DNA of 64,000 nucleotides, from NCBI GenBank assembly GCA_030680295.1, contig JAUXVU010000023.1, forward strand, positions 62,001 through 126,000. The letters run 5' to 3'. The number at the start of each line of letters is the position of its first letter. The stretch's first letter is position 1. The notes below the pieces were generated by a model, which saw only the letters and a list, made by a program, of their open reading frames with translations, had not been told where the DNA came from and did no database searches. Position numbers and translations under genes: made by a program. Shown one piece after another: positions 11,103 to 62,348 of this stretch. Origin of the DNA: Moraxellaceae bacterium (GTDB taxonomy: Bacteria; Pseudomonadota; Gammaproteobacteria; Pseudomonadales; Moraxellaceae).

Positions 11103-11740
11103 TTCCCGTGCATGGCCTGTAATGCCCGCCATTGCTGCAGTCTCGCCAAGAGCTGCAGCAATGTGTTTATTCCCTGCTGCTGCGCTTTAACTAACAAAAT
11201 CAATACTAGTTCTGCCGTTACCCAAGCATCAGCATATGCTTGGTGACGACTTGCAATGCTCAGTCCAAAATGACTTATACAATCATCTAAGCTAGGGCGC
11301 TTATTTAAGTCAGGGCTAAGCATAGCGGCCAACTCAGCAACATCCACGAAGACATTAGTCAGTTTTTGTCGCAGAGCCTGCTTATAGGCGCGCTGCAGAA
11401 ACGCCTGATCAAAGGGGGCATGAAAGGCAAAAATAGGCTGCTCTTTGATAAAAGATTTAAAGCGCATCAACGCCTGCCTTGGCTCTTCGCCAAAACTCAC
11501 CTCAGTCGCCGTGATGCCATGCACTAACGTCGCCTCAGATGGCTTATGCGTTGAGACATACAAAGCAGCTTCAAAACCTGCGGCTACACCTATTTGACGC
11601 CCCTGAATCTGATAAGCAGCAATCGCCAAAATATGATCGTGCTGAGACTTTAAACCTGTTGTTTCCAAGTCCAAAACAATGGCACCTAAGTCCGCTAAGG
11701 GCACATCAATAACAGGGGCATGTTTGGCAAACCACATCAT
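11099..11740 (-). CDS. DnaQ-like DEDDh 3'-5' exonuclease
   Basis: A 213-aa exonuclease of the DnaQ/epsilon superfamily. The four acidic residues and the histidine can be placed: DLETTGL (motif I), HAPFDQAFLQRAY (motif II) and HQAYADAWVTAEL (motif III, DEDDh). It is shorter than PolC-type proteins and has no second domain. Its start overlaps the stop of the upstream DUF294 gene by 4 nt (ATGA), so the two are translationally coupled. It may trim DNA or RNA ends, but its partner and substrate are unknown. Confidence 0.88.
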   Translation of the reverse strand: MMWFAKHAPVIDVPLADLGAIVLDLETTGLKSQHDHILAIAAYQIQGRQIGVAAGFEAALYVSTHKPSEATLVHGITATEVSFGEEPRQALMRFKSFIKEQPIFAFHAPFDQAFLQRAYKQALRQKLTNVFVDVAELAAMLSPDLNKRPSLDDCISHFGLSIASRHQAYADAWVTAELVLILLVKAQQQGINTLLQLLARLQQWRALQAMHGN

Positions 11741-13644
11741 GGGATGTATCGCTGACTGATAGTGGCTTGCAGCCGCTTAGCCTGGCGCAATGATTCGCGC
11801 AAAATACGGCGATCTAAAGGGTTGAGTTGGTCTGGATTGATTATATTTGACCGTGTACGCCCAGCGCTGACCTGCGCTTGGTGTTGCTGCAAGCGTAATA
11901 ACTGAATATAGCCATACGCTTCAACATAGGCTGCCCCATCTGCCGACTCAATCACACTGGATTGAACAAGCTGCTGCAAACGATCCACCGTATTGGTCTG
12001 CACCACACCATGCACCAATGACAATAAACGAGCAGCATCAACAAAGGGGGTTAGTCCCTGCACTTTTAAGTCCAAACCTTTTTCCTGACCTACTTTATGT
12101 TGCAGAACAAAGTCACGAAAACGACCTAATGGTGGACGCTGATTAAGCGCGGCCGAGGCCAAGTGAAATTGAAAGATTGTATTGTGCGCGGCTTGGCGAA
12201 AGAGCTGCGCCATTACGGCATCTAACGCAGAACTATTACCCCAGACAATTCGAGCATCAAAATAAATGCTAGCAGCCAGTAAGTTTTCAGGCGTTGCTAC
12301 GGCAATAATTTTATCAAAATAGTGCTGCCACTCCTGCGCTGAACGACACAGGTCAGGATTGCTGGCCATAACATTGCCTTTACACCACGCAAAACCTAGT
12401 TGATCTAAGTCTTGATTCACCGCATGCGCAAAAGGCAGCAAACGCTGGCGATATTCTTGGCTTTGCCCAGCATCATCGACATGAAACACAATGCCATTAT
12501 CTTGATCAGTTAATAACGTTTGTTCACGTCGCCCTTCACTGCCAAAACATATCCAGCTAAAGCTGATATCAGCCAAATCAAATTGACCAATTTGCAGCTC
12601 AAGCACGCGACACAACACATGATCATTCATTTGGGTAATGAGCGTGGTGACCTGTGTGGCTGATGCCCCATGCGACAACATAGCCGAAATTAGTTCAGCC
12701 AAATCTGCCAAAGCGAGTTTTAGTGCGCCGAGGTGAGTTGCTCGACGGATACGACGGGTCAAATCCACCAGATTAATACGCTGCAGCGCAAATAAGTCAC
12801 GCTCGGCGAGCACCCCCAACAAACGCCCCTGCTCCACCACCAGCAAATGCGCAATATGCCGTTCCGTCATCAGTAGCAGTGCATCAAATGCCGTGGCATC
12901 GTGGCTTAAAGCCACCGGATTGGCCGTCATCCATGTCGCCAATTTATCATTACTATCCAAATTGCCTGACGCCACCGCGCGACGTAAATCACGCAGAGTA
13001 AAAATACCGATTGGCTGCAGCGCCTGATCCACAATAACGACACTGCTGATGTTCTCACGATGCATAAGCTGCACCGCCTGCTGAACGGATGTTGTGCCAT
13101 CACAGCTCACGGGCTCACGTATGATCAGTTTTGATAACGGCACATCTAAGGAATGATTGGAGTCAACATGATGCTTAACTTGTTGCTGCATTTGTTTACT
13201 GACACGTTCAAGCAACAGGCTTACACCACGTACTACAAAGTCACGAAATACTTCAGAGCGTGTTAGTAGCTGAGCAAAATCATCATGATTTAGTACATAA
13301 CAAAAGCAATCAGAGCTGGCTCGATGCAAGGTTCGTGTAGCACGCTGCCCCATCAAAGCCGCCACAGGAAAGCACTCACCAACACCAATATCAAACGTCA
13401 ACTCAACCTCTTGTTTAACCTGACGCTCGCCGTGAATTTGCCCCTGCTTAACAATAAAAAACTCAGTCGCCGGGCCATGCTCAGGGCTAATAACCACTTC
13501 ACCCATAGCGAAATAACGCAGATGCAATTTAGAGACTAAAAACAGTAAGTCATTAGGCAGCAAGGCATCAAACGGTGGGTAGCTGCTCAAAAATGTCATC
13601 ATGGCCTGTTGGCCTTGGACATCGGTGTGATTGATACGCGCCAT
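11737..13644 (-). CDS. cNMP-binding/CBS/DUF294 nucleotidyltransferase-like protein
   Basis: A 635-aa four-part protein. Residues about 15-135 form a cyclic-nucleotide-binding beta-barrel; about 170-300 hold two CBS domains (LIIREPVSCDGTTSVQQAVQLM opens the first); near residue 370 lies the DUF294 nucleotidyltransferase-like motif FGSEGRREQTLLTDQDNG; and the C-terminal 150 residues are the helical DUF294 substrate-binding domain. The GSxGR and DxD residues are intact, so catalysis is possible. It resembles a sensor that couples nucleotide binding to nucleotidyl transfer. The exonuclease gene follows with a 4-nt overlap. Confidence 0.9.
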   Translation of the reverse strand: MARINHTDVQGQQAMMTFLSSYPPFDALLPNDLLFLVSKLHLRYFAMGEVVISPEHGPATEFFIVKQGQIHGERQVKQEVELTFDIGVGECFPVAALMGQRATRTLHRASSDCFCYVLNHDDFAQLLTRSEVFRDFVVRGVSLLLERVSKQMQQQVKHHVDSNHSLDVPLSKLIIREPVSCDGTTSVQQAVQLMHRENISSVVIVDQALQPIGIFTLRDLRRAVASGNLDSNDKLATWMTANPVALSHDATAFDALLLMTERHIAHLLVVEQGRLLGVLAERDLFALQRINLVDLTRRIRRATHLGALKLALADLAELISAMLSHGASATQVTTLITQMNDHVLCRVLELQIGQFDLADISFSWICFGSEGRREQTLLTDQDNGIVFHVDDAGQSQEYRQRLLPFAHAVNQDLDQLGFAWCKGNVMASNPDLCRSAQEWQHYFDKIIAVATPENLLAASIYFDARIVWGNSSALDAVMAQLFRQAAHNTIFQFHLASAALNQRPPLGRFRDFVLQHKVGQEKGLDLKVQGLTPFVDAARLLSLVHGVVQTNTVDRLQQLVQSSVIESADGAAYVEAYGYIQLLRLQQHQAQVSAGRTRSNIINPDQLNPLDRRILRESLRQAKRLQATISQRYIP

Positions 13645-17187: not shown

Positions 17188-17200
17188 TCGTTAAGACTGC
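17168..17200. other. 13-bp perfect inverted repeat spanning two convergent stop codons
   Basis: GCAGTCTTAACGA and its exact complement TCGTTAAGACTGC flank the 7-nt loop CGAATAA. The loop contains the TAA stop of the binding-protein gene, and the second arm contains the TAA stop of gltX on the other strand. There is no T-tract on either side, so it is not a classical intrinsic terminator; it may act as a bidirectional 3'-end stabiliser. Confidence 0.85.
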
Positions 17201-18729
17201 TCTTCAATCTCAGTTAATGAATCACCACGACGAAACGCCGCTAGCTGCTTCTCCAGCAGCTTGGTTTCCTTCTTGCTAACACCGCCCAGTATGGCGATAG
17301 CATCACGCAAACGGGCACGCGTCATATCAGGGCCCATAATTGCCATGGCTTCCATGATCGGTGGTGCAGACGGCGTGCCAGCAATGCTGATAAAAAATGG
17401 CGCCATAAAATCACGCATTTTGATGCCCATCGCCGAATTCAAGCGCTGCAAGACATCATGAATCACGCTGTGATCCCACTGACTTTGCAACTCCAGCTCC
17501 CATAATGCCAACTGCAGAGCTGCCTTAATCTGCTCAGGCGACAACTTCAAACCATCAAAACTATTTTCAGTCAGCTTCACGTTGCCAGCAAAAAAGAAGC
17601 CAGCCCAGTCTACGGCTTCGGACAAGGTGCTAATACGTGTTTGAATTTGACTGGCCACACGTGACAAAAACTCAGGCTGTGCCCAACGCTGGAATGCCGC
17701 CACAAACTCTGGCAATGGCAGAGCCTTCAACCACTGGCCATTTAGCCAAGAAAGTTTCTCAACATCAAAAATCGGCCCACCCAACGACACCCGCGACACA
17801 TCAAAATTGGCAATCATATCCACCAAGGTGAATTGCTCGCGCTCATCTGGCATGGACCAACCCATGCGTCCCAAGTAGTTCAGCACAGCTTCTGGCAAAT
17901 AGCCCATACGCTGGTAATAGGTAATCGACGTTGGATTTTTGCGTTTGGATAACTTGGACTTGTCCGGGTTACGCAACAAAGGCATATGACACAATACTGG
18001 CATTTCCCAGCCAAAATAGTCATATAACAATTTGTGCTTAGGTGCTGAACTAATCCACTCCTCACCACGCAAAACATGGGTAATCGCCATTAAATGGTCA
18101 TCAACCACATTGGCCAAATGATATGTCGGCAGGCCATCAGCCTTCATCAGCACCTGCATGTCGACTTGCTCCCACGGAATTTCAATGGTTCCGCGCAACA
18201 AGTCATTCACCACACATAAACGTTCTTCGGCCGGCGCATCTACCGCTGGACGCGGTACCTTCATACGCACCACTGATGACTCACCCGCAGCTAAACGACG
18301 CGCCACTTCATCGGCACTTAAATGTGTGCAATGACCGTCATAACCCGGCGTTTGTTTATTCGCCATTTGCTCTGCGCGCAGCGTATCTAAGCGCCCAGTT
18401 GAGCAGAAACAATGGAAGGCATGGCCGTTGTCGATCAGCTGTTGTGTGTGCACACGATAGACTTCACTACGCTCACTTTGACGATACGGTGCATAAGGAC
18501 CACCGACATCCGGACCCTCATCCCAATTTAAGCCCAGCCACTTTAGCGAGGCTAAAATTTGTGCCTCAGACTCTGGCGTCGAACGCACTTGATCCGTGTC
18601 CTCAATCCGCAAAATGAATTGACCACCATGTTGGCGAGCAAAACAAAGGTTAAATAAAGCGATGTAGGCAGTGCCTACATGAGGATCACCCGTGGGAGAT
18701 GGTGCAACACGCGTACGAACGACAGTCAT
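17191..18729 (-). CDS. gltX: glutamate--tRNA ligase
   Basis: Class I aminoacyl-tRNA synthetase of 512 aa that charges tRNA-Glu. The HIGH signature appears as [18 protein letters not shown] and the KMSKS signature as [10 protein letters not shown]. The length (longer than the 471 aa of E. coli GltX) and motif spelling fit the Pseudomonadales enzyme. Residues [16 protein letters not shown] correspond to the region that carries a zinc knuckle in E. coli; here the cysteines are mostly lost, as in many GltX proteins. A tRNA-Glu gene lies 7 kb away in the same window. Confidence 0.97.
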
Positions 18730-18816: not shown

Positions 18817-21807
18817 TTAACGTGTTTGACTGCGACTGCGGCGTTGATCTGCCGAACTCAAGCCCAATGGACGTGCAATTGTGTTCAGCAAGTCTGTCAC
18901 GGCAGAGATCGGTAGTGCTCCGCCGGTGACTTTTTGCAGTGTTTTTAGCAAGTCATTTAATTCGGCTGGAGCCAACTCATTAATGAGCAGTGGTAACTCA
19001 CCACCACTGCAACCATCCTCATCTTTTACCAAATCATCATCCATGGAGTTCAAAGCTGGCAACGTCGTATTAACCCATTCGTTAATCAACGCAGAAGCCT
19101 CTCCATGAACCTGTGCCTTCGCAATCGGGGGCATGCGAATTCCAGGCTCAGCGGAGGCTACGCGGAAGTTCATAATTGAACCTGCTTGATCACCCAAAAC
19201 AATGTCGAATTGGCGATTACCTGAACCACGACCAGCAGCTACCGGTGTTTTACAAATACCGTATTGGCGGTTCACTGTACGAATGCTGTCTAAGAACAGG
19301 CCCGAATTAGACGCTCCACCATTTGGATTATGGCAATGCGCACAGTTCATTTCTAAGTAGGCACGCACACGCTCATGAATGTCTAGTGCAGAGTTCGCTG
19401 GTGCTTTACTCGGGCCAGAACCCGGCACATCCCACATCGCTACTGGTTTATCAGGCGTAGTAGCAGTACCCGTGAGCAGGCCCTTACTTCGCATTAACGC
19501 CAATTGGTTAGGTCCGGTACCATCTTTATTGTGCGGACGGTCTAGGTAACGCGCCTTAGGACCAATTGGAGCCGAGCCTGGCTCTCGGTTGTCACCACCA
19601 TGGCAGCTGACACAGTTCAAGGCAGCAGGAATGACATAACCATCGCTACTACCTTGATAGACGGCACGAGCACCATTCTTCATGACTGCAGGATTTGGAT
19701 CGCGGTAATTCCAGCTAACTTTAGCCGTACCACCTGCTACTTTAAGTAAAGCGCGAACCGGCTCGCCGTTACTGTCATGCTCCCAAATATAAGGCAGTCC
19801 AACCCAGTTCACACCACTGCCCTGTTGACGCTTAACGAGTAAACGAGTTTCCACAATATGCTGGCTTTGCAGGTCACCATTGCTGGCTTCTTTGCGGAAA
19901 CTAAATGTTTTAGCAATCACAGTACCGACTGGAAAATCCAAGGTATCCATGGCTTTATTCACGCTGCCTTGGCTATCCAAATAACGTGCCGGCAAGACTC
20001 CGCCACCGCCTTGTGGTGGCAAGAAAATCACCCGATCTTTGCTAGAGTAATCCGAGAACAATGCAGTATTAAGCTCATAGGGCATGACACCTTGGCCATT
20101 ACCTGCAGACAATGGATTGTTTGCATCACTAAACAAACCAAATTGGCTCAACTCAGGGCAGTTTACTTTGGCCAAAGCCGACCAGTTCACTTCACCTGGC
20201 TTCACAGCACGACATAAGCGAGCCACTTCAGCAGCCGATGGTGGCAGCTCTTCTTGACGTGGCTTATATGGCAGTGCCAACGGTCGAATAGTCTCGGTGT
20301 ACGACAGACTACAGTTATGCGGAGCCAAGTCAGTTGATGCCGGTGTCAGCAAGTCTTGGACCAGTGCAGGGCCAACTTCTGAGCGCGCAAACTTGGCATT
20401 CAAAAATGGTACAGATAACAGGCTTGATTCATGCGTATTATTTTGAATACACAGGCCGTTTTCTGGCTTTTTCAAACGTTTATTTTCATCAAACTTCCAT
20501 GCGTTATATCGGCAAGATGGCTCGGGATCAGGTCGACTAAAATTAGGTCGGCCACGCTCATCAACACGCGGCTCAAAACGATCTGTGTCATTCGCATTGG
20601 CTTGATTAAGTGGTTTACCGTCTTTGTCTACTGGGAAAGCACAGCTCTCATCAAGCGTATCCTCACCTCCGTCCCAGACAATATCCGCACCACGGCCAAG
20701 TCCTTTCAAACGTAAAATGGCAGGCAATGCAGAGGCAATGCCACGGTTAATATCTGGCAGTTGAGGCTTCTTACCATTTCCACGAAATACGTTATCCCGA
20801 ATCATGATGCCTTCTGGGTAAAAATCGTATTTGAAGTCTGGGTTCTTACTATCCACTAGTCCGTAATTAACCATGGCAATGCCGAGTGTGTCATTGTCAT
20901 AAATTTCGTTATCGTAAATTTCAACTTCGTCAGCGGCGAGAATCAACATACCCGTTCCGCGTGGAACAAGACCCACAATATTGCCTACGGGTGCAAAGTT
21001 TGCCGTGTTATTAGCAAAAGACTTATTGCGGCGGACAATGTTGCCTGCGCCGTACTGACGAAGGTCCGGCAAGTCAAAAATCAAGAAGCCGCCAGTATTT
21101 TTGGTGGCAATATTGTCCTCAAACACTGCGCGATAGGTATTTTCGAATTCATAACCTGCCACGTTGTAAGTTGCCAAACAACGACGCACTAAAACATCAT
21201 TGGACTGACCAACATAAATACCAGCATCAGATGCACCATGAGCTTCACAGTCTTCCATGAGTACATGGCGTGTTTCTACTGGATACAACGCATAGGCACC
21301 AACATCACTACGTGGGGTGTAACCTGGGTCTTTTTCATTACGGCCAGCCAAGTCATGCCAGCGCACCAACACATGACGCACGGTAATAAATTCGGAACGA
21401 TAAATTCGAATGCCATTGCCGGGGGTATCTTCGACACTAAACCCTTCCAAAATTAAACCATCGGAGTGCGAGGCATTAATGCCTTCAGCACTATCACTGT
21501 CTTTGAAGTTCAGGATGGTTTTATTCATGCCGGCACCCTTTAACGTGATGCCCGGTTTGCTATTAATTAATAAGCCAGTTGGCATATTAAAAGTGCCTGC
21601 GCACAACTCCACCACATCGCCAGCTTGCGCCTCAAATAAGCGAGTCAAGATTTCATCACGAGCTTGTGCATCAGCCTTAATACAAGGCAGAGTGACGCGT
21701 GGCGAATCAGGATTAGGTGACGAAGAGTTATTCTTGGACTCAAATTTACAGCCAACAAGTAGCGTCGAAGCAACAAGTAGAGTCACAGCAGGCAGGGTAA
21801 TTTTCAT
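18817..21807 (-). CDS. fused beta-helix / diheme-cytochrome-like lipoprotein (TIGR03805 + TIGR03806 type)
   Basis: A 996-aa lipoprotein; the signal peptide ends in LLVGC (Cys20). Residues about 45-460 are a right-handed parallel beta-helix (repeats such as GLILEGFSVEDTPGNGIRIY, HVLMEDCEAHGASDAGIYV and VEIYDNEIYDNDTLGIAMV). From about residue 530 comes a second module with two c-type heme sites, CVSCH (732-736) and CAHCH (822-826), followed by candidate axial Met residues (IRMPPIAKAQ). From memory, these are the TIGR03805 and TIGR03806 (HNE_0200/SO_2930) families, usually separate neighbouring genes of unknown function; here they are one polypeptide. Two heme sites imply c-type maturation and redox activity outside the cytoplasm. 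Confidence 0.87.
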   Translation of the reverse strand: MKITLPAVTLLVASTLLVGCKFESKNNSSSPNPDSPRVTLPCIKADAQARDEILTRLFEAQAGDVVELCAGTFNMPTGLLINSKPGITLKGAGMNKTILNFKDSDSAEGINASHSDGLILEGFSVEDTPGNGIRIYRSEFITVRHVLVRWHDLAGRNEKDPGYTPRSDVGAYALYPVETRHVLMEDCEAHGASDAGIYVGQSNDVLVRRCLATYNVAGYEFENTYRAVFEDNIATKNTGGFLIFDLPDLRQYGAGNIVRRNKSFANNTANFAPVGNIVGLVPRGTGMLILAADEVEIYDNEIYDNDTLGIAMVNYGLVDSKNPDFKYDFYPEGIMIRDNVFRGNGKKPQLPDINRGIASALPAILRLKGLGRGADIVWDGGEDTLDESCAFPVDKDGKPLNQANANDTDRFEPRVDERGRPNFSRPDPEPSCRYNAWKFDENKRLKKPENGLCIQNNTHESSLLSVPFLNAKFARSEVGPALVQDLLTPASTDLAPHNCSLSYTETIRPLALPYKPRQEELPPSAAEVARLCRAVKPGEVNWSALAKVNCPELSQFGLFSDANNPLSAGNGQGVMPYELNTALFSDYSSKDRVIFLPPQGGGGVLPARYLDSQGSVNKAMDTLDFPVGTVIAKTFSFRKEASNGDLQSQHIVETRLLVKRQQGSGVNWVGLPYIWEHDSNGEPVRALLKVAGGTAKVSWNYRDPNPAVMKNGARAVYQGSSDGYVIPAALNCVSCHGGDNREPGSAPIGPKARYLDRPHNKDGTGPNQLALMRSKGLLTGTATTPDKPVAMWDVPGSGPSKAPANSALDIHERVRAYLEMNCAHCHNPNGGASNSGLFLDSIRTVNRQYGICKTPVAAGRGSGNRQFDIVLGDQAGSIMNFRVASAEPGIRMPPIAKAQVHGEASALINEWVNTTLPALNSMDDDLVKDEDGCSGGELPLLINELAPAELNDLLKTLQKVTGGALPISAVTDLLNTIARPLGLSSADQRRSRSQTR

Positions 21808-22458: not shown

Positions 22459-24180
22459 CTAACTTCTAGGTGGCAGACTGCTTCTTAACATGAGCTCTGC
22501 CACTGGTGCAGGTTTAGGCTGAGTTACTCGATCGTGCATGCGCTCACTCTCTGGCTTTAGTAACTCCTCCGCCAGCGACACGAAGCCAGTCTGGAAGGCT
22601 GCTAGTGTCCATTGCCCGAACATTGTGTGACCACCTTCATAGGCCTGCTCTTGGTACTCTTCGTTAGTAGTGACATAACCCATATAGTCATTGCAGTAAG
22701 TGCAAATTAGCACTTGCTCAATACCGCGTGGCCGTAAGCGCTCTGCCACAACTTTTAACAGGCGGCGGCCTGCAATGGTGGTGAACTCACCTGGACAGCT
22801 GACTAGCGCGATTTGTCCAAGAATGACAATTTGTAGTGGCAGCACAGTCGGCACCATCGCACTTTCATTGATCGCACCAGCTTTAGCCTGACGTTTCATC
22901 TCAGCCATCAATGGATCGGCAGCATCGGGCAATCCAAGGCGATCAAAGGTACGGCCAAGTACAAGTTTTCGACCCGTTTCCATGAGGATGTCTTTAGGAC
23001 CTTGCGCGCTATAAAGCCGTTGGTAATATTGGCGATCCTCTGGCGACAGCCCTGACAATGGACCAAGACGATAGTTACGCACAACACGTGCACCGATACG
23101 CATAGCGGCCGCCAGCGGTGGCGGCACACCATGGCCATCAACCGGGGTGCCGGCGAAAAATGACACGCCGTGACAAGGATCTGTGGTCCATGCCTCAGGC
23201 TCACCATTGGCCATGGCCGGATCAGCATGCACGGCAGTGAAATCCACATAAGTGAAAATAGCATCGATACCACCATTGACCGGCGTCTGCTGTGGATCAG
23301 CGGCGATATTCAGTGCCATATCACTTTGATAACGGCCATTTTCGGCGGCATAAACATACTCTGCACGACCTTTAATGGCATTGCGTCGTGCTGTCTGACG
23401 AGGACCATGATAGTGCGGTGAAACATCACCAGCCGTCCCTTGGGCGAAGATGGCAACTGCATCTACATCTACATCTGATAATTGCTGCTCTACTTGGGCA
23501 GAAGCATAGCCCTTGTTATCACCATCGTGACGATCCAGTGAATTACCCAGACAGGTAGCATGCACACCAAATAGCGACAGCAACGAGTGCATTTGGCCGT
23601 CACGACTGAAGCTTAGAACTTGCATGGTGCGCTCTAACGCCTTGTGGTTTTCACCTTCCTGATAGCGAGTCACATCTAGGTTACGGTTCCAAGCCTTTAG
23701 TGACCGATTCCAAGCCACCGGCACAGCCTCATCAAAACGACCAGAGGCCAAATTCAGATCAGTCGGTGCAGCGCTCTGCCAGGCCGCCACAACAGCATCG
23801 ACAGTGGCATTTATGACAGCTTCTAGATGCTCTGGTACGAATCCGGGAGTGACTAGGTTATACATCACATCATGGCTGCATCCGCCGGGACCCGAGTGAG
23901 TATGCGTACAAGTCAACACAAAAGCAGCATCGTTAAAGACTGCTCCCATGCGTTCGCGCAGACGCTCAATAGCACCGCTGCGCATGGCATAAGAGACATA
24001 ACCAAGGTCTAGACAGCAGAAGGTCAATGCCTGACCTGCAGCATTCTGTACAAAGAATGCACGGGCATACAGCGGCGTTTCTTGGCCAAGAGCGCGATGC
24101 CCGGGCTGTCCATAGCCGTACATAGCATAACCACGTGGGCTAACTCCGATTTCCTGCCTACTCCACCCTGCCTGATACAT
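22459..24180 (-). CDS. neutral/alkaline ceramidase-like amidohydrolase
   Basis: A 573-aa protein from ATG 24180, which has a strong GAGGGAG site eight bases upstream; an upstream ATG at 24207 is less likely. The N-terminal domain has the ceramidase signatures CTHTHSGPGG (zinc histidines), a nucleophile region near NKGYASAQVEQ, and AQGTAGDVSPHYHGP. Neutral ceramidases hydrolyse the amide of ceramide to sphingosine and fatty acid. Unlike secreted CerN-type enzymes, this one has no signal peptide and is about 70-100 residues shorter at the C-terminus, so it may act on an intracellular N-acyl substrate. It is the last gene of a three-gene cluster. Confidence 0.85.
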   Translation of the reverse strand: MYQAGWSRQEIGVSPRGYAMYGYGQPGHRALGQETPLYARAFFVQNAAGQALTFCCLDLGYVSYAMRSGAIERLRERMGAVFNDAAFVLTCTHTHSGPGGCSHDVMYNLVTPGFVPEHLEAVINATVDAVVAAWQSAAPTDLNLASGRFDEAVPVAWNRSLKAWNRNLDVTRYQEGENHKALERTMQVLSFSRDGQMHSLLSLFGVHATCLGNSLDRHDGDNKGYASAQVEQQLSDVDVDAVAIFAQGTAGDVSPHYHGPRQTARRNAIKGRAEYVYAAENGRYQSDMALNIAADPQQTPVNGGIDAIFTYVDFTAVHADPAMANGEPEAWTTDPCHGVSFFAGTPVDGHGVPPPLAAAMRIGARVVRNYRLGPLSGLSPEDRQYYQRLYSAQGPKDILMETGRKLVLGRTFDRLGLPDAADPLMAEMKRQAKAGAINESAMVPTVLPLQIVILGQIALVSCPGEFTTIAGRRLLKVVAERLRPRGIEQVLICTYCNDYMGYVTTNEEYQEQAYEGGHTMFGQWTLAAFQTGFVSLAEELLKPESERMHDRVTQPKPAPVAELMLRSSLPPRS

Positions 24181-24221
24181 AAAATTTGCTCCCTCAATCA
24201 ACAACAAAATTCAGCTACAGC

Positions 24222-25589
24222 CTATGAACGAACTTCATCAAAAAAGCCCGGCACTAATTCGGGCCAACCCATTTGGCTACGCAATTTTTCGATATGCTTT
24301 TTGTAGGCATTAATTTCGATATAACCCTTGCTGCGATCAGAGTCGACAAACTTGATACCACCAGATAAGTCCGGGCGATCCTCACGCAGACGCTGCTCAA
24401 ACACCTTAGCTTTTTCAGGGTGATGATCTTGATCATGCAGATAGTTCGCCACCATCTGCGACACTCGATCGAAAAGTGTATAAGCACTAGAGTTGGTTTC
24501 CAGATATCCCACACCAAACAAATTGCTATGTTTAGGGTTAAAGGCAGTCAAAATCAGCTTTGGCCTGCCTCCATCCCAATCAAAATAAGTTTCCGGAACA
24601 TAGGGAATGCTCATGTTGTAGCCCGTGGCGTATAACACCAGATCAATCTGCTCACGTGAGCCATCGGTAAACACCACATCATCGCCATCAAAATATTTAA
24701 CGTCTTTTTTGGCTTTGATGTCGCCATGCTGCAAGTAGTGCAACAACTGAGAGTTAAGTAACGGATGAGACTCAAAAATTCGGTGATCTGGCTTGGGCAT
24801 ACCCGTACGCGAGGTATCCCCAACAACCATACGTAGCAGCATGGTCATTGCAGGTCGTTGCAGCCACATCGGTAGTCGAGGACCTTTGGCAGCAAACTCA
24901 TCTACCGGAATGCCAAACACGTGCTTGGGCAGAAAATAATAACCACGGCGCACACTAATAAAAGCAGCATCCGCATTGGCGGCAGCATCACAAGCAATAT
25001 CAGCACCTGAATTACCCAAACCAATAATCAACACTCGCTTATTACGAAACTCGTCAGCATGCTTGAAAGTCACAGAGTGACGAATTTCACCATTAAACTG
25101 ACCCTCATGACGTGGTAGACGTGGATGCCAGTTAGTACCAGTGGCACACACAACAGCGCGATAACGCCGCACTTCTCCACCCGAAAACCTAACCAACCAA
25201 GCCTTACCATCCTTTTCGACATGTTCAATGGCAGTCTGGAATTGAATCGCGTCATACAGACCAAAAGCACGAGCAAAACTGCGTGTATAGGCGAGAATCT
25301 GGCGATTAGACGGATAATCCGGGTAATCATCAGGCATAGGGAAGCCGTAGAAACCCGACGTATTGCGTGAGGAGATGAAATGAGCGGAATGATACATCGG
25401 TGTACCTGGATTGTTCAGATCCCAGATGCCACCAACATCGCTGTGGCGCTCAAACTGCTCATATGCAATACCAAGCCGCTTGAAGGCGCGGGCTACACTA
25501 AGGCCAGCCGGGCCAGCACCTATAATACAAACGGCATTTGAACTATCAGTGACCTGTAAATGTTGGTCAGACATTAATGTAGAGGACAT
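24222..25589 (-). CDS. flavin-containing monooxygenase (FMO-type)
   Basis: A 455-aa class B flavoprotein monooxygenase. The FAD site is CIIGAGPAGLSVARAFKRLG, the NADPH site is VLIIGLGNSGADIACDAAA, and between them is the FMO fingerprint FNGEIRHSVTFK (FxGxxxHxxx type). The YATGYNMSIPYVPE segment near the C-terminus is also typical. These enzymes oxygenate nitrogen or sulfur atoms, or insert oxygen into ketones. It ends 42 nt before the ceramidase start and is likely in the same transcript. The substrate is unknown. Confidence 0.88.
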   Translation of the reverse strand: MSSTLMSDQHLQVTDSSNAVCIIGAGPAGLSVARAFKRLGIAYEQFERHSDVGGIWDLNNPGTPMYHSAHFISSRNTSGFYGFPMPDDYPDYPSNRQILAYTRSFARAFGLYDAIQFQTAIEHVEKDGKAWLVRFSGGEVRRYRAVVCATGTNWHPRLPRHEGQFNGEIRHSVTFKHADEFRNKRVLIIGLGNSGADIACDAAANADAAFISVRRGYYFLPKHVFGIPVDEFAAKGPRLPMWLQRPAMTMLLRMVVGDTSRTGMPKPDHRIFESHPLLNSQLLHYLQHGDIKAKKDVKYFDGDDVVFTDGSREQIDLVLYATGYNMSIPYVPETYFDWDGGRPKLILTAFNPKHSNLFGVGYLETNSSAYTLFDRVSQMVANYLHDQDHHPEKAKVFEQRLREDRPDLSGGIKFVDSDRSKGYIEINAYKKHIEKLRSQMGWPELVPGFFDEVRS

Positions 25590-26930: not shown

Positions 26931-27962
26931 ATGCTCCAGGATGATCCCCGTTTTACCGAGGCTGTCATTCCCACTTTTGTCATTGCGGGGCTGGTCGATC
27001 ACGCTTATTCCAGAGGGCTTGAGCCAGAAGCTTGGTTTGCGGGCCAAGGGTTGGCCGTCGCACAGATCCAGCAATCAGAGGCACTGATTTCCTTCCGACA
27101 GGCAACTACCATTATTCGGCGAGCCTTACGTACACTGCCAACTGAGCCACTAGGTCTACATGTGGGGTCGCGTGAAGCACTCACCTCATTTGGTATGCTT
27201 GGTTTCGCCATACTGTCCAGCCAGAACGTGCGTGAAGCCTTTGCTACAGGACTTGAATTCCATCTCGCCTCTGGCAGCTTGGTAGACGTCGAGGCCGAAA
27301 TTACTGCCACAGAAGTTACGCTGCAACTACATGAGCGCTTCCCTGACACAGAGCTATTGCCCTTTCTTTGTGAAGAAGTTTTTGCCAGTTCGGTTGCCAT
27401 CATGAGGATGATGCTGGGCAATAACACGTCACCACTGCGTATCGAGCTAAGCTATCCACAACCCGCTTATGGCGCTGCGTACCAGCGACTATTCAAGTGT
27501 CCAGTACGCTTCAATAGCAGCGCTAATCGCATGGTATTTTCTTCGGCACTAATGGACTTCCCACTGACTACCCGCAGCGCAGCAAGTCATGCTGCAGCAC
27601 TAGCCGCCTGTCGCAAATTGATTACACCAAGTGTAACCACTCAAGACGTCATCAATTCAGTAGAAAACCTGTTACGCAACCATTTGCGCCAGCGTCCGAC
27701 CATGACTGATATCGCCGACTGGCTCAACACGACCGAGCGAACACTTCGCCGTCAACTAACCGACGTGGGACAAAGCTTTAGCAACATCCGAGACCGCGTT
27801 TTAGAACAACAGGCGCGGCTATTATTAAGCAACTCAAGGTTGTCAATTTCTAATATTGCAGAGGAGCTTGGTTTTAGTGATCCTCGCGATTTTCGCCGCG
27901 CATTTCGGCGCTGGACGGGCATCTCACCCTCACGGCTACGACAAAACGCTCCTAATGAATAA
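26931..27962 (+). CDS. AraC family transcriptional regulator (Arabinose_bd N-domain type)
   Basis: A 343-aa regulator. The N-terminal two thirds match the OruR/ArgR-like sensor domain (EPLGLHVGSREALTSFGMLGFAILSSQNVREAF), and the C-terminal about 85 residues carry two helix-turn-helix units: MTDIADWLNTTERTLRRQL and ISNIAEELGFSDPRDFRRAFRRWTGISPS. It is divergent from the ketopantoate-reductase-like/FMO/ceramidase genes and is probably their regulator. P. aeruginosa SphR, an AraC-family protein that activates its ceramidase gene in response to sphingosine, is a suggestive parallel, but orthology is not shown here. Confidence 0.88.
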   Translation: MLQDDPRFTEAVIPTFVIAGLVDHAYSRGLEPEAWFAGQGLAVAQIQQSEALISFRQATTIIRRALRTLPTEPLGLHVGSREALTSFGMLGFAILSSQNVREAFATGLEFHLASGSLVDVEAEITATEVTLQLHERFPDTELLPFLCEEVFASSVAIMRMMLGNNTSPLRIELSYPQPAYGAAYQRLFKCPVRFNSSANRMVFSSALMDFPLTTRSAASHAAALAACRKLITPSVTTQDVINSVENLLRNHLRQRPTMTDIADWLNTTERTLRRQLTDVGQSFSNIRDRVLEQQARLLLSNSRLSISNIAEELGFSDPRDFRRAFRRWTGISPSRLRQNAPNE

Positions 27963-61070: not shown

Positions 61071-62348
61071 TTAACGCTCAATAATCGCTACAACACCTTG
61101 GCCACCAGCAGCACAGACTGAAATCAAACCACGACCTGAGCCCTTTTCTGACAAGATTTTAGCCAAAGTACCGACAATACGACCACCTGTTGCTGCAAAA
61201 GGATGGCCTGCCGCCAGCGACGAGCCGTTAACGTTGAGTTTGCTGCGATCGATTGAACCTAAAGGCGCATCTAAACCCAAACGCTCTTTGCAGAAAGTTG
61301 GGTCTTCCCATGCCTTTAAAGTTGATAGAACTTGTGAAGCAAAAGCCTCGTGGATTTCGTAGTAGTCGAAGTCCTGCAAAGTCAAACCACGACGAGCCAA
61401 TAAACGTGGAACCGCATAAGCAGGCGCCATCAGCAAACCTTCTTTCTTATGCACAAAATCTACTGAAGCTACTTCACCATCAATAAAGTAAGCCAGAATT
61501 GGCAAGCCACGTGCTTTTGCCCAGTCTTCAGACGCCAACAGCACCACTGACGCACCATCAGTCAGCGGCGTGGAGTTAGCCGCAGTCATGGTGCCCGTTT
61601 CGCGGTCACCAAAGCACGGCTTGAGTGTGGCTAACTTTTCGATATTGGAATCAGGACGAAGGTTCTGATCACGCTTCAAGCCTAAGTAAGGCGAAATCAG
61701 ATCATCAAAGAAACCACGCTCGTAAGCAGCGGCTAATTTGTGGTGGCTAGCAACGGCCAAAGCGTCCTGCTCAGCACGAGGAATTTGCCACTCAGCAGCA
61801 GTAATGGCCGCGTGATCGCCCATGGCCAGACCCGTACGTGGCTCACCATTGCGTGGAATCGCTGGAATTAGGTGCTTAGGACGGATTTTTGCCAATGTTT
61901 TTAATTTGGCACCCGTAGTTTTGCCACGATTTACTTCCAACAAAATGGAGCGCAGGCCTTCACTCAGTGCAATCGGGGCATCGGAAGTCGTGTCCACACC
62001 ACCAGCAATGCCTGACTCAATTTGACCAACAGCAATTTTGTTGGCAACCAAAATGGCAGCCTCTAAGCCAGTACCACAAGCTTGCTGAATATCATAAGCT
62101 GTTGTCTCTGGTGAAAGCTTAGTGCTTAACACGCACTCACGCGTTAAGTTAAAGTCACGGCTGTGCTTGAGCACAGCACCGGCTACAACTTCACCTACAC
62201 GCTCACCTTCTAACTTATAACGACTAACCAAGCCATCGAGTGCTGCCGTCAGCATGTCTTCGTTAGACGCTGTAGCGTAAACACTGTTTGAACGCGCGAA
62301 AGGGATACGATTAGCACCAACAATGGCGACACGACGTAGACTGGACAT
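61071..62348 (-). CDS. acetyl-CoA C-acyltransferase (thiolase, FadI/FadA2-like)
   Basis: A 425-aa thiolase. The nucleophile Cys91 lies in DIQQACGTGLEAA; EIHEAFASQVL, NVNGSSLAAGHPFAATGGR and CAAGGQGV supply the remaining catalytic residues. The length fits the FadI type rather than the shorter FadA type. Thiolases cleave 3-ketoacyl-CoA in beta-oxidation, or run in reverse to start PHA-type synthesis. It is divergent from the two-domain FabG gene, the arrangement I recall for fadA2 and fabG4 in mycobacteria. Confidence 0.94.
   Translation of the reverse strand: MSSLRRVAIVGANRIPFARSNSVYATASNEDMLTAALDGLVSRYKLEGERVGEVVAGAVLKHSRDFNLTRECVLSTKLSPETTAYDIQQACGTGLEAAILVANKIAVGQIESGIAGGVDTTSDAPIALSEGLRSILLEVNRGKTTGAKLKTLAKIRPKHLIPAIPRNGEPRTGLAMGDHAAITAAEWQIPRAEQDALAVASHHKLAAAYERGFFDDLISPYLGLKRDQNLRPDSNIEKLATLKPCFGDRETGTMTAANSTPLTDGASVVLLASEDWAKARGLPILAYFIDGEVASVDFVHKKEGLLMAPAYAVPRLLARRGLTLQDFDYYEIHEAFASQVLSTLKAWEDPTFCKERLGLDAPLGSIDRSKLNVNGSSLAAGHPFAATGGRIVGTLAKILSEKGSGRGLISVCAAGGQGVVAIIER

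Follow-up and report, generated by a model that had tools for sequence, protein, structure and literature searches.

The protein families TIGR03805, a β-helix, and TIGR03806, which NCBIfam labels as a diheme c-type cytochrome only, are known as the SO2930/HNE_0200 pair. This report concerns a gene that joins relatives of both in one chain of 996 amino acids. It comes from a Moraxellaceae bacterium (GenBank assembly GCA_030680295.1), from positions 62,001 to 126,000 of contig JAUXVU010000023.1; this whole stretch of 64,000 nucleotides is called the window, and coordinates are counted from its first letter. Literature searches on the two families, and on cytochrome P460 with diheme, fused or β-helix proteins, found no paper linking these subjects.

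Several described systems resemble parts of this protein. The superfamily of cytochromes P460 and c'-β (PF16694) is of most interest for the diheme half. In the P460 of M. capsulatus, Lys78 is cross-linked to the heme, as given in PMC6427953, and Arg50 and Asp102 are the distal cap and the distal carboxylate, as given in PMC11928373. Fusions of a glucose/sorbosone dehydrogenase (GSDH) domain with a diheme module have the same C-terminal module and the same conserved residues, but carry the GSDH enzyme domain where the window protein has its β-helix. Hydrazine synthase α subunit (PF18582), with a propeller, a reactive c-heme and a second heme as portrayed in PMC12758564, resembles these GSDH fusions. 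The β-helix half is similar to mannuronan C5-epimerase AlgE4 and to an alginate epimerase/lyase at the fold level (Z 30-32, 19-20% identity), whereas a sequence-family match is absent.

We propose, with about an even chance of being right, that the fusion is an exported, probably outer-membrane, one-chain oxidoreductase with a P460-like reactive heme (heme 1, at the first CxxCH motif).

The heme 1 domain and cytochrome P460

The diheme half was modelled alone (residues 505-996; predicted local distance difference test, pLDDT, 86.4; predicted template modelling score, pTM, 0.82). In the model, a β-sheet domain is followed by the helix of the first CxxCH and then by a helical second heme domain. 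After re-alignment of 998 chains by VIA, the top 12 entries, representing 6 distinct proteins, were all cytochrome P460 or c'-β (7s5o, Z 6.9; 7ead, 6.0; 6hiu, 6.0; down to 6w6n, 5.0), with the next unrelated chain at 4.3; the first CxxCH lies inside the aligned range. The first two rows returned by Foldseek were likewise cytochrome P460 (E 0.12 and 0.27). The aligned order shared with the superfamily is an Arg strand, a Pro-x-Gly-x4-Lys strand, a charged strand and the CxxCH helix. The TIGR03806-type proteins differ in having extra strands ahead of the CxxCH, a second heme domain and a fused β-helix or GSDH domain, and the distal acid of P460 has no aligned counterpart.

PF16694 proteins were collected and sequence profiles compared by hhalign, a procedure that does not depend on the structural alignment, even if that alignment was the reason to choose P460. 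The segment FPVGTVIAK falls on the P460 motif PWPDGAILAK with E 0.0057, and a second alignment put it in the same place. Position 50 of the P460 profile is residue 78 of 6hiu_B, so the register of this weak alignment would bring Lys633 onto the cross-linking lysine; the spacing is identical, Pro71-x-Gly73-x4-Lys78 in P460 and Pro626-x-Gly628-x4-Lys633 in the window protein.

Controls used 122 complete modules, selected by profile and freed of exact duplicates, of which 101 are linked to a β-helix and 21 are not. The 101 β-helix-linked rows matched P460 with E 7.5e-4 over 62 columns that exclude the CxxCH region. Column shuffles never scored as high for this match (0/60 and 0/150; the nearest of the 60 reached 27.05 against 27.64), and the reversed P460 control gave E 0.4. 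With the CxxCH cut from both sides, the same rows scored 21.5 (E 0.0052; 1/200 shuffles as high), above all 69 decoys, the best of which scored 20.0. In the cut alignments of all three row sets, the aligned stretch was the FPVGT...K / WPDGA...K region.

The rows were also compared with a divergent group of 21 PF16694 sequences. With the CxxCH in, over 82-88 columns and uncontrolled, E was 5e-5 for the β-helix-linked rows, 1.1e-5 for all rows and 5e-7 for the other rows; with the CxxCH out, the respective values were 0.0056, 0.0022 and 0.0023, and none of 100 shuffles scored as high for the β-helix-linked rows. Against core P460, the GSDH-type rows had the best raw hhalign score of the row sets (E 4.1e-5), but this match was discounted, as it covers 12 columns round the CxxCH.

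A number of results weigh against a P460 relationship. Foldseek gave no match under E 0.001 for the diheme model, and PF16694 had no match to the window protein at E 0.1. Z of 5-7, taken alone, is within the range of chance arrangements according to the tool's own note; the weight of the model-based evidence rests on the agreement of the top rows, since Z could be chance. With the CxxCH kept, an unrelated neighbour family, one of 45 compared, scored higher against P460 than the β-helix-linked rows did (29.4 versus 27.6). With it cut, the full set of 122 rows reached 19.97 (E 0.0091, 1/200 shuffles) and so fell just short of the top decoy; the score for the 21 rows without a β-helix was 16.1 (E 0.047, 11/200 shuffles as high). 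Two of the 69 decoys scored higher against the divergent group than the β-helix-linked rows did (24.8 and 23.4 versus 22.8), with E-values that were no lower (best 0.0071). The distal carboxylate Asp102 aligns with Arg655, which is no acid; Glu653 stands two residues earlier. Finally, the conserved residues of this domain are shared by the rows lacking a β-helix, of which the four scanned are GSDH fusions; such conservation would suit an electron relay as well.

From sequence alone, then, the likeness to P460 is marginal. Common descent of the heme 1 domain and P460 is nevertheless likely, though unproven, because structure, register and residue conservation are taken together.

Hydrazine synthase α is a lead only: its profile matches near the CxxCH (E 9e-4, 55 columns, no control), whereas the window protein has no Pfam match to PF18582. 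Hydrazine synthase chains were not among the structural matches listed, which excludes nothing. PF18582 proteins also occur in Pseudomonadota (L205-L214), most with two CxxCH motifs and with weak profile likeness to the TIGR03806 heme 1 region.

Conserved residues and heme ligands

Several residues in the region aligned with P460 are nearly invariant in the 122 rows: Arg592 (121), Pro626 (122), Gly628 (121), Lys633 (121), Glu653 (122) and Arg655 (121), as are Trp668 and both CxxCH motifs (122 each). Met892 is present in 118 rows (98/101 β-helix-linked, 20/21 other), the remainder being gaps. Among the 101 β-helix-linked rows it is the sole methionine conserved to at least 90%, and no histidine outside the CxxCH motifs reaches 90%. 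The conservation of Met892 alone, and of no extra histidine, supplies heme 2 with a predicted ligand and leaves heme 1 without one of the usual sort. Heme 2 shows the order of a class I cytochrome c, a CxxCH followed by a distal methionine, and looks like an ordinary member of that class with predicted His826/Met892 ligation. Lys590, conserved in 120 of the 122 rows, is a possible candidate ligand of heme 1.

The fusion gene, its β-helix half and the partnership of the halves

The 996-codon frame is on the minus strand and has no internal stop. TIGR03805 matches with E 2.5e-87 (292.9 bits, above the curated NCBIfam cut-off of 141.5), and TIGR03806 matches residues 549-913, near its full length, with E 7.8e-77 (258.5 bits, under the cut-off of 313.3); the diheme half is a TIGR03806 relative outside the curated bound of the family. 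A first-pass annotation of this DNA, made from the letters alone, had proposed a natural fusion of these two families, to be checked with both models, and had placed CxxCH motifs at 732-736 and 822-826; the intact frame and the two matches bear out the fusion, and both motifs are where they were claimed. A stop hidden between the halves by sequencing error, which it named as a risk, is unlikely, because five further genomes of the genus hold a full-length frame without inner stops, at 63-69% identity.

The exported lipoprotein that the same annotation expected agrees with the predicted signal, whose lipobox Cys20 is conserved in 51 of 55 aligned rows. Lys follows the lipobox cysteine at +2, and by the +2 rule the outer membrane is the likely location. 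The signal and the two c-type heme motifs also support its extracytoplasmic redox role, the motifs being the reason to think of redox. The genome has a single copy of the fusion gene and a gene for CcmF (c-heme assembly).

In the full-length model (pLDDT 87.1, pTM 0.87), the β-helix matches the alginate epimerase/lyase 8jaz (Z 32.2), AlgE4 (2pyg, 30.5), the RbmB lyase (29.2) and NosD (7osf, 26.9). A common β-helix fold proves no function, and the polysaccharide binding raised by the first-pass annotation would be a putative role. Strongly conserved residues of the β-helix include Tyr172, Tyr175, Asp194, Tyr198, Gln201, Glu220, Glu222 and Asn223. In sequence searches of the Protein Data Bank, the diheme half had no homologue of solved structure and the β-helix had weak matches only, with no epimerase among those listed in one of the searches.

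Gene order and trees favour a partnership of the two halves. In the mapped adjacent pairs the β-helix gene is upstream and the diheme gene downstream; the maps come from a crude longest-frame caller and, later, one scored by residue composition, so that small genes may be missed or false. Distances in the trees of the two halves correlate among fused rows (r 0.86) and among separate pairs (r 0.77), and none of 1000 permutations reached either value, to which shared species history contributes.

Distribution of fused and paired forms

Among 38 genomes near the window, the full-length fusion was found in 6 of the 7 genomes of the genus, the window's own included; the seventh (G005) gave no match, nor did any of the 18 other genomes of the family, and further families of the order mostly have the two halves on separate frames. 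Species genomes contain at least 560 relatives, the nearest, within the best 80 of these, being in Paraperlucidibaca (Moraxellaceae). These best 80, 22 loci from further genomes and the window made 103 loci, classed in six frames as 46 fused, 48 adjacent pairs and 9 with the β-helix only. The count is no census, because the ranking is biased towards fused proteins, and two contigs are counted twice: L058 and L095 are apparently one contig, as are L093 and L113, and all four are included. A less biased class sample of 369 genomes had six with TIGR03806 over the cut-off, all adjacent pairs; among the weaker matches inspected, four genomes (G061, G074, G148, G265) and the window's own had the fused form. 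A Shewanella fusion of 883 amino acids passes both curated cut-offs and has a second diheme gene after it; at L164 (9800-13738) and L172 (9800-13739) this separate gene is followed by an AraC gene.

Quick trees of each half (92 rows; SH-aLRT support, no bootstrap) left out L058, and also L093 and L113 owing to short N pieces. The fused rows number 44, and 3 fused/paired transitions are required in the β-helix tree and 4 in the diheme tree. Fusion is a recurrent, ordinary arrangement, as follows from the locus classes and these changes of state. The first-pass view that the two families usually lie in neighbouring genes is generally correct, but fusion is common too, and rarity of the fusion is not borne out. 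In both trees the window is in a clade of 29 rows, all fused (SH-aLRT 99). It shares both halves with the TIGR03805/TIGR03806 pair, but differs by the sub-cut-off TIGR03806 score and by the form of about 1000 amino acids typical of this clade.

Some loci depart from these types. At L113 (5172-8286, apparently the L093 contig), a β-helix frame overlaps a β-helix/diheme frame, with the look of a fusion split by a frameshift. L085 (76-4278) has three tandem stand-alone diheme genes and no β-helix in its 6.9-kb contig. L117, L121, L122, L128, L144, L151, L155, L163 and L166 have a TIGR03805-like gene and no diheme partner in the locus. Most β-helix-only loci share a conserved neighbourhood of their own, and in 9/9 the genes shown within three of the β-helix gene lack CxxCH (L144 is at a contig edge). 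L089 (11176-14032), L090 (9108-12052) and L091 (202-2915) encode distant β-helix proteins of about 500 amino acids with a CxxCH of their own near the C-terminus, adjoined by a protein that has two CxxCH motifs (in L090, the sole case scanned, Pfam assigns it to CCP_MauG); this is a second kind of β-helix/heme pairing.

Gene neighbourhood

Upstream of the fusion, past a divergent glycine-zipper gene, the window has genes for a ceramidase-like protein, a flavin monooxygenase-like protein (FMO), an ApbA-like protein and an AraC regulator (Table 1). The 8.7-17 kb that could be inspected upstream in G001a, G002, G004 and G006 yielded neither a ceramidase nor an FMO homologue; two of these four contigs end just past the gene, and the view extends to at most 17 kb. 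In G001a, G002 and G003 the fusion adjoins a homologue of window gene 17191-18729, which by its sequence would be GltX. A paralogous second fusion in G001 (L057 3513-15662), 46% identical, has a two-domain ceramidase 1.3 kb off on the other strand, and stands in a run with a small gene and genes for Gluconate_2-dh3, GMC oxidoreductase, ThuA and ApbA-like proteins.

Over 102 loci (without L058), AraC regulators make up 13/192 adjacent genes against 4/855 genes 3-8 away (p 2e-7), and TonB receptors 13/192 against 8/855 (p 9e-6); the loci also supplied the search models, and related ones among them are not independent. The TonB model was built from one gene cluster (cluster 3), while another (cluster 15) is Peptidase_M19-like by Pfam. 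QhpR, under its cut-off, was the best named relative of two AraC regulators scanned. Where present, the recurring unit resembles an inducible cassette for uptake and redox functions. An adjacent AraC regulator or TonB receptor recurs in relatives and is absent at the window's fusion, and the window's AraC regulator belongs to a cluster found beside the pair in some relatives.

Other neighbours vary. At L068 (9486-16398, scanned) and L072 (22-6644, homologues), lipase-like, fatty-acid-desaturase and FAD-reductase genes precede the fusion on the same strand. A CBS/DUF294 nucleotidyltransferase-like gene (scanned; window 11737-13644) is about 5 kb from the fusion, and three Marinobacter loci (L100, L102, L110) have a homologue immediately downstream of their fusion. 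A penicillin-amidase-family gene adjoins the fusion in Sinimarinibacterium and Stagnimonas (L096 7236-9656, scanned; L108 7157-9715, homologue).

Table 1. Features of the fusion gene and neighbouring genes in the window.
Feature	Position	Strand	Basis
Fusion gene, 996 amino acids (β-helix and diheme)	18817..21807	minus	Uninterrupted frame and NCBIfam matches
Lipoprotein signal, residues 1-20, lipobox LVGC	21748..21807	minus	Cys20 conservation
Right-handed β-helix with C-terminal cap, residues 36-500 (TIGR03805 core 55-380)	20308..21702	minus	Structure model
P460/c'-β-like β-sheet heme domain (heme 1), residues 547-758, approximate boundaries	19534..20169	minus	Model and profile alignment
Arg592, on Arg50 of M. 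capsulatus P460	20032..20034	minus	hhalign
FPVGTVIAK, residues 625-633; Lys633 on P460 cross-link Lys	19909..19935	minus	hhalign; weak alignment
Glu653-Thr-Arg655, at distal carboxylate strand of P460	19843..19851	minus	Profile alignment
Heme 1 motif CVSCH, residues 732-736	19600..19614	minus	Sequence
Heme 2 motif CAHCH, residues 822-826	19330..19344	minus	Sequence
Met892, predicted distal ligand of heme 2	19132..19134	minus	Row conservation
Neutral/alkaline ceramidase-like protein (neighbour, not shown to belong)	22459..24207	minus	PF04734, E 1.1e-89
Flavin monooxygenase-like protein (neighbour, not shown to belong)	24222..25589	minus	PF00743, E 1.3e-48
AraC regulator, PF12625 and HTH_18 (neighbour, not shown to belong)	26931..27962	plus	Family scan

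Proposed function and alternatives

In the mechanism that we propose, the protein, exported and lipid-anchored as predicted, would dock a surface ligand or substrate by its N-terminal β-helix, as the fold suggests. Heme 1, held in a P460/c'-β-type β-sheet domain with no conserved distal His or Met, would have open coordination, and the pocket lined by the conserved Arg592, Lys633, Glu653 and Arg655 would be the likely site of reaction. Heme 2 would hand the electrons to a periplasmic carrier, in keeping with its class I motif. A lysine-heme cross-link may form, and small N-oxides, nitric oxide (NO) or peroxide are suggested as substrates solely by the likeness to P460. Because the heme 1 domain looks P460-like, the diheme half may be catalytic, a point missed by the first-pass annotation. 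It is possible, if doubtful, that every TIGR03806-type module, in pairs, fusions and GSDH fusions alike, conceals a heme of P460 fold that has a Lys-porphyrin cross-link and is connected to a cytochrome c in the same chain. On that view the fusion would be a P460 enzyme anchored at the surface, and its β-helix would hold a small redox substrate, hydroxylamine-like or of another kind.

In the four GSDH fusions scanned, this module comes after the GSDH domain, a setting in which relay would be its natural role, and the run of genes round the G001 paralogue includes those for a GMC oxidoreductase and a Gluconate_2-dh3 protein. These facts, and the conservation of Lys590, which could make heme 1 six-coordinate, favour a diheme half that is an electron relay only, with catalysis in the β-helix or in a separate dehydrogenase. 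Heme 2, however, could relay by itself, and the conserved residues of the heme 1 domain follow the P460 pocket in order, so that we consider a mere relay rather unlikely. The top VIA match, 7s5o, is a cytochrome c'-β, as would suit a sensor or scavenger in which heme 1 binds NO or peroxide and the β-helix is a surface tether; but the aligned residues are charged and the lysine is kept, where c'-β structures, as given in PMC11928373, have Phe or Met, and a second, electron-exit heme suggests turnover, which makes such a role improbable.

The ceramidase and FMO genes upstream in the window, and the ceramidase near the G001 paralogue, recall the SphR regulon of P. aeruginosa, in which a ceramidase, a cytochrome c and an oxidoreductase share their regulation (PMC3900636, PMC11893366). 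A place for the fusion in a ceramide/sphingosine pathway is very improbable, given the four genomes of the genus with neither homologue in the upstream range seen, the divergent gene between ceramidase and fusion in the window, and the occurrence of ceramidase within 2 genes in just 2 of the 103 loci, both being sources of the search model. The partners are also of other kinds as these papers present them: SphB is a mono-heme cytochrome, SphC an oxidoreductase and SphD an aldolase-like protein.

What is new here is the P460-like reading of heme 1 in TIGR03806, the fused β-helix/diheme form itself being ordinary. If the reading is true, the protein would be an enzyme and not a simple electron wire, and P460 chemistry, for which nitrifiers and methanotrophs have been the main objects of study, would extend to diheme modules of Gammaproteobacteria, Bacteroidota and Planctomycetota, the reach of our 92-row tree set.

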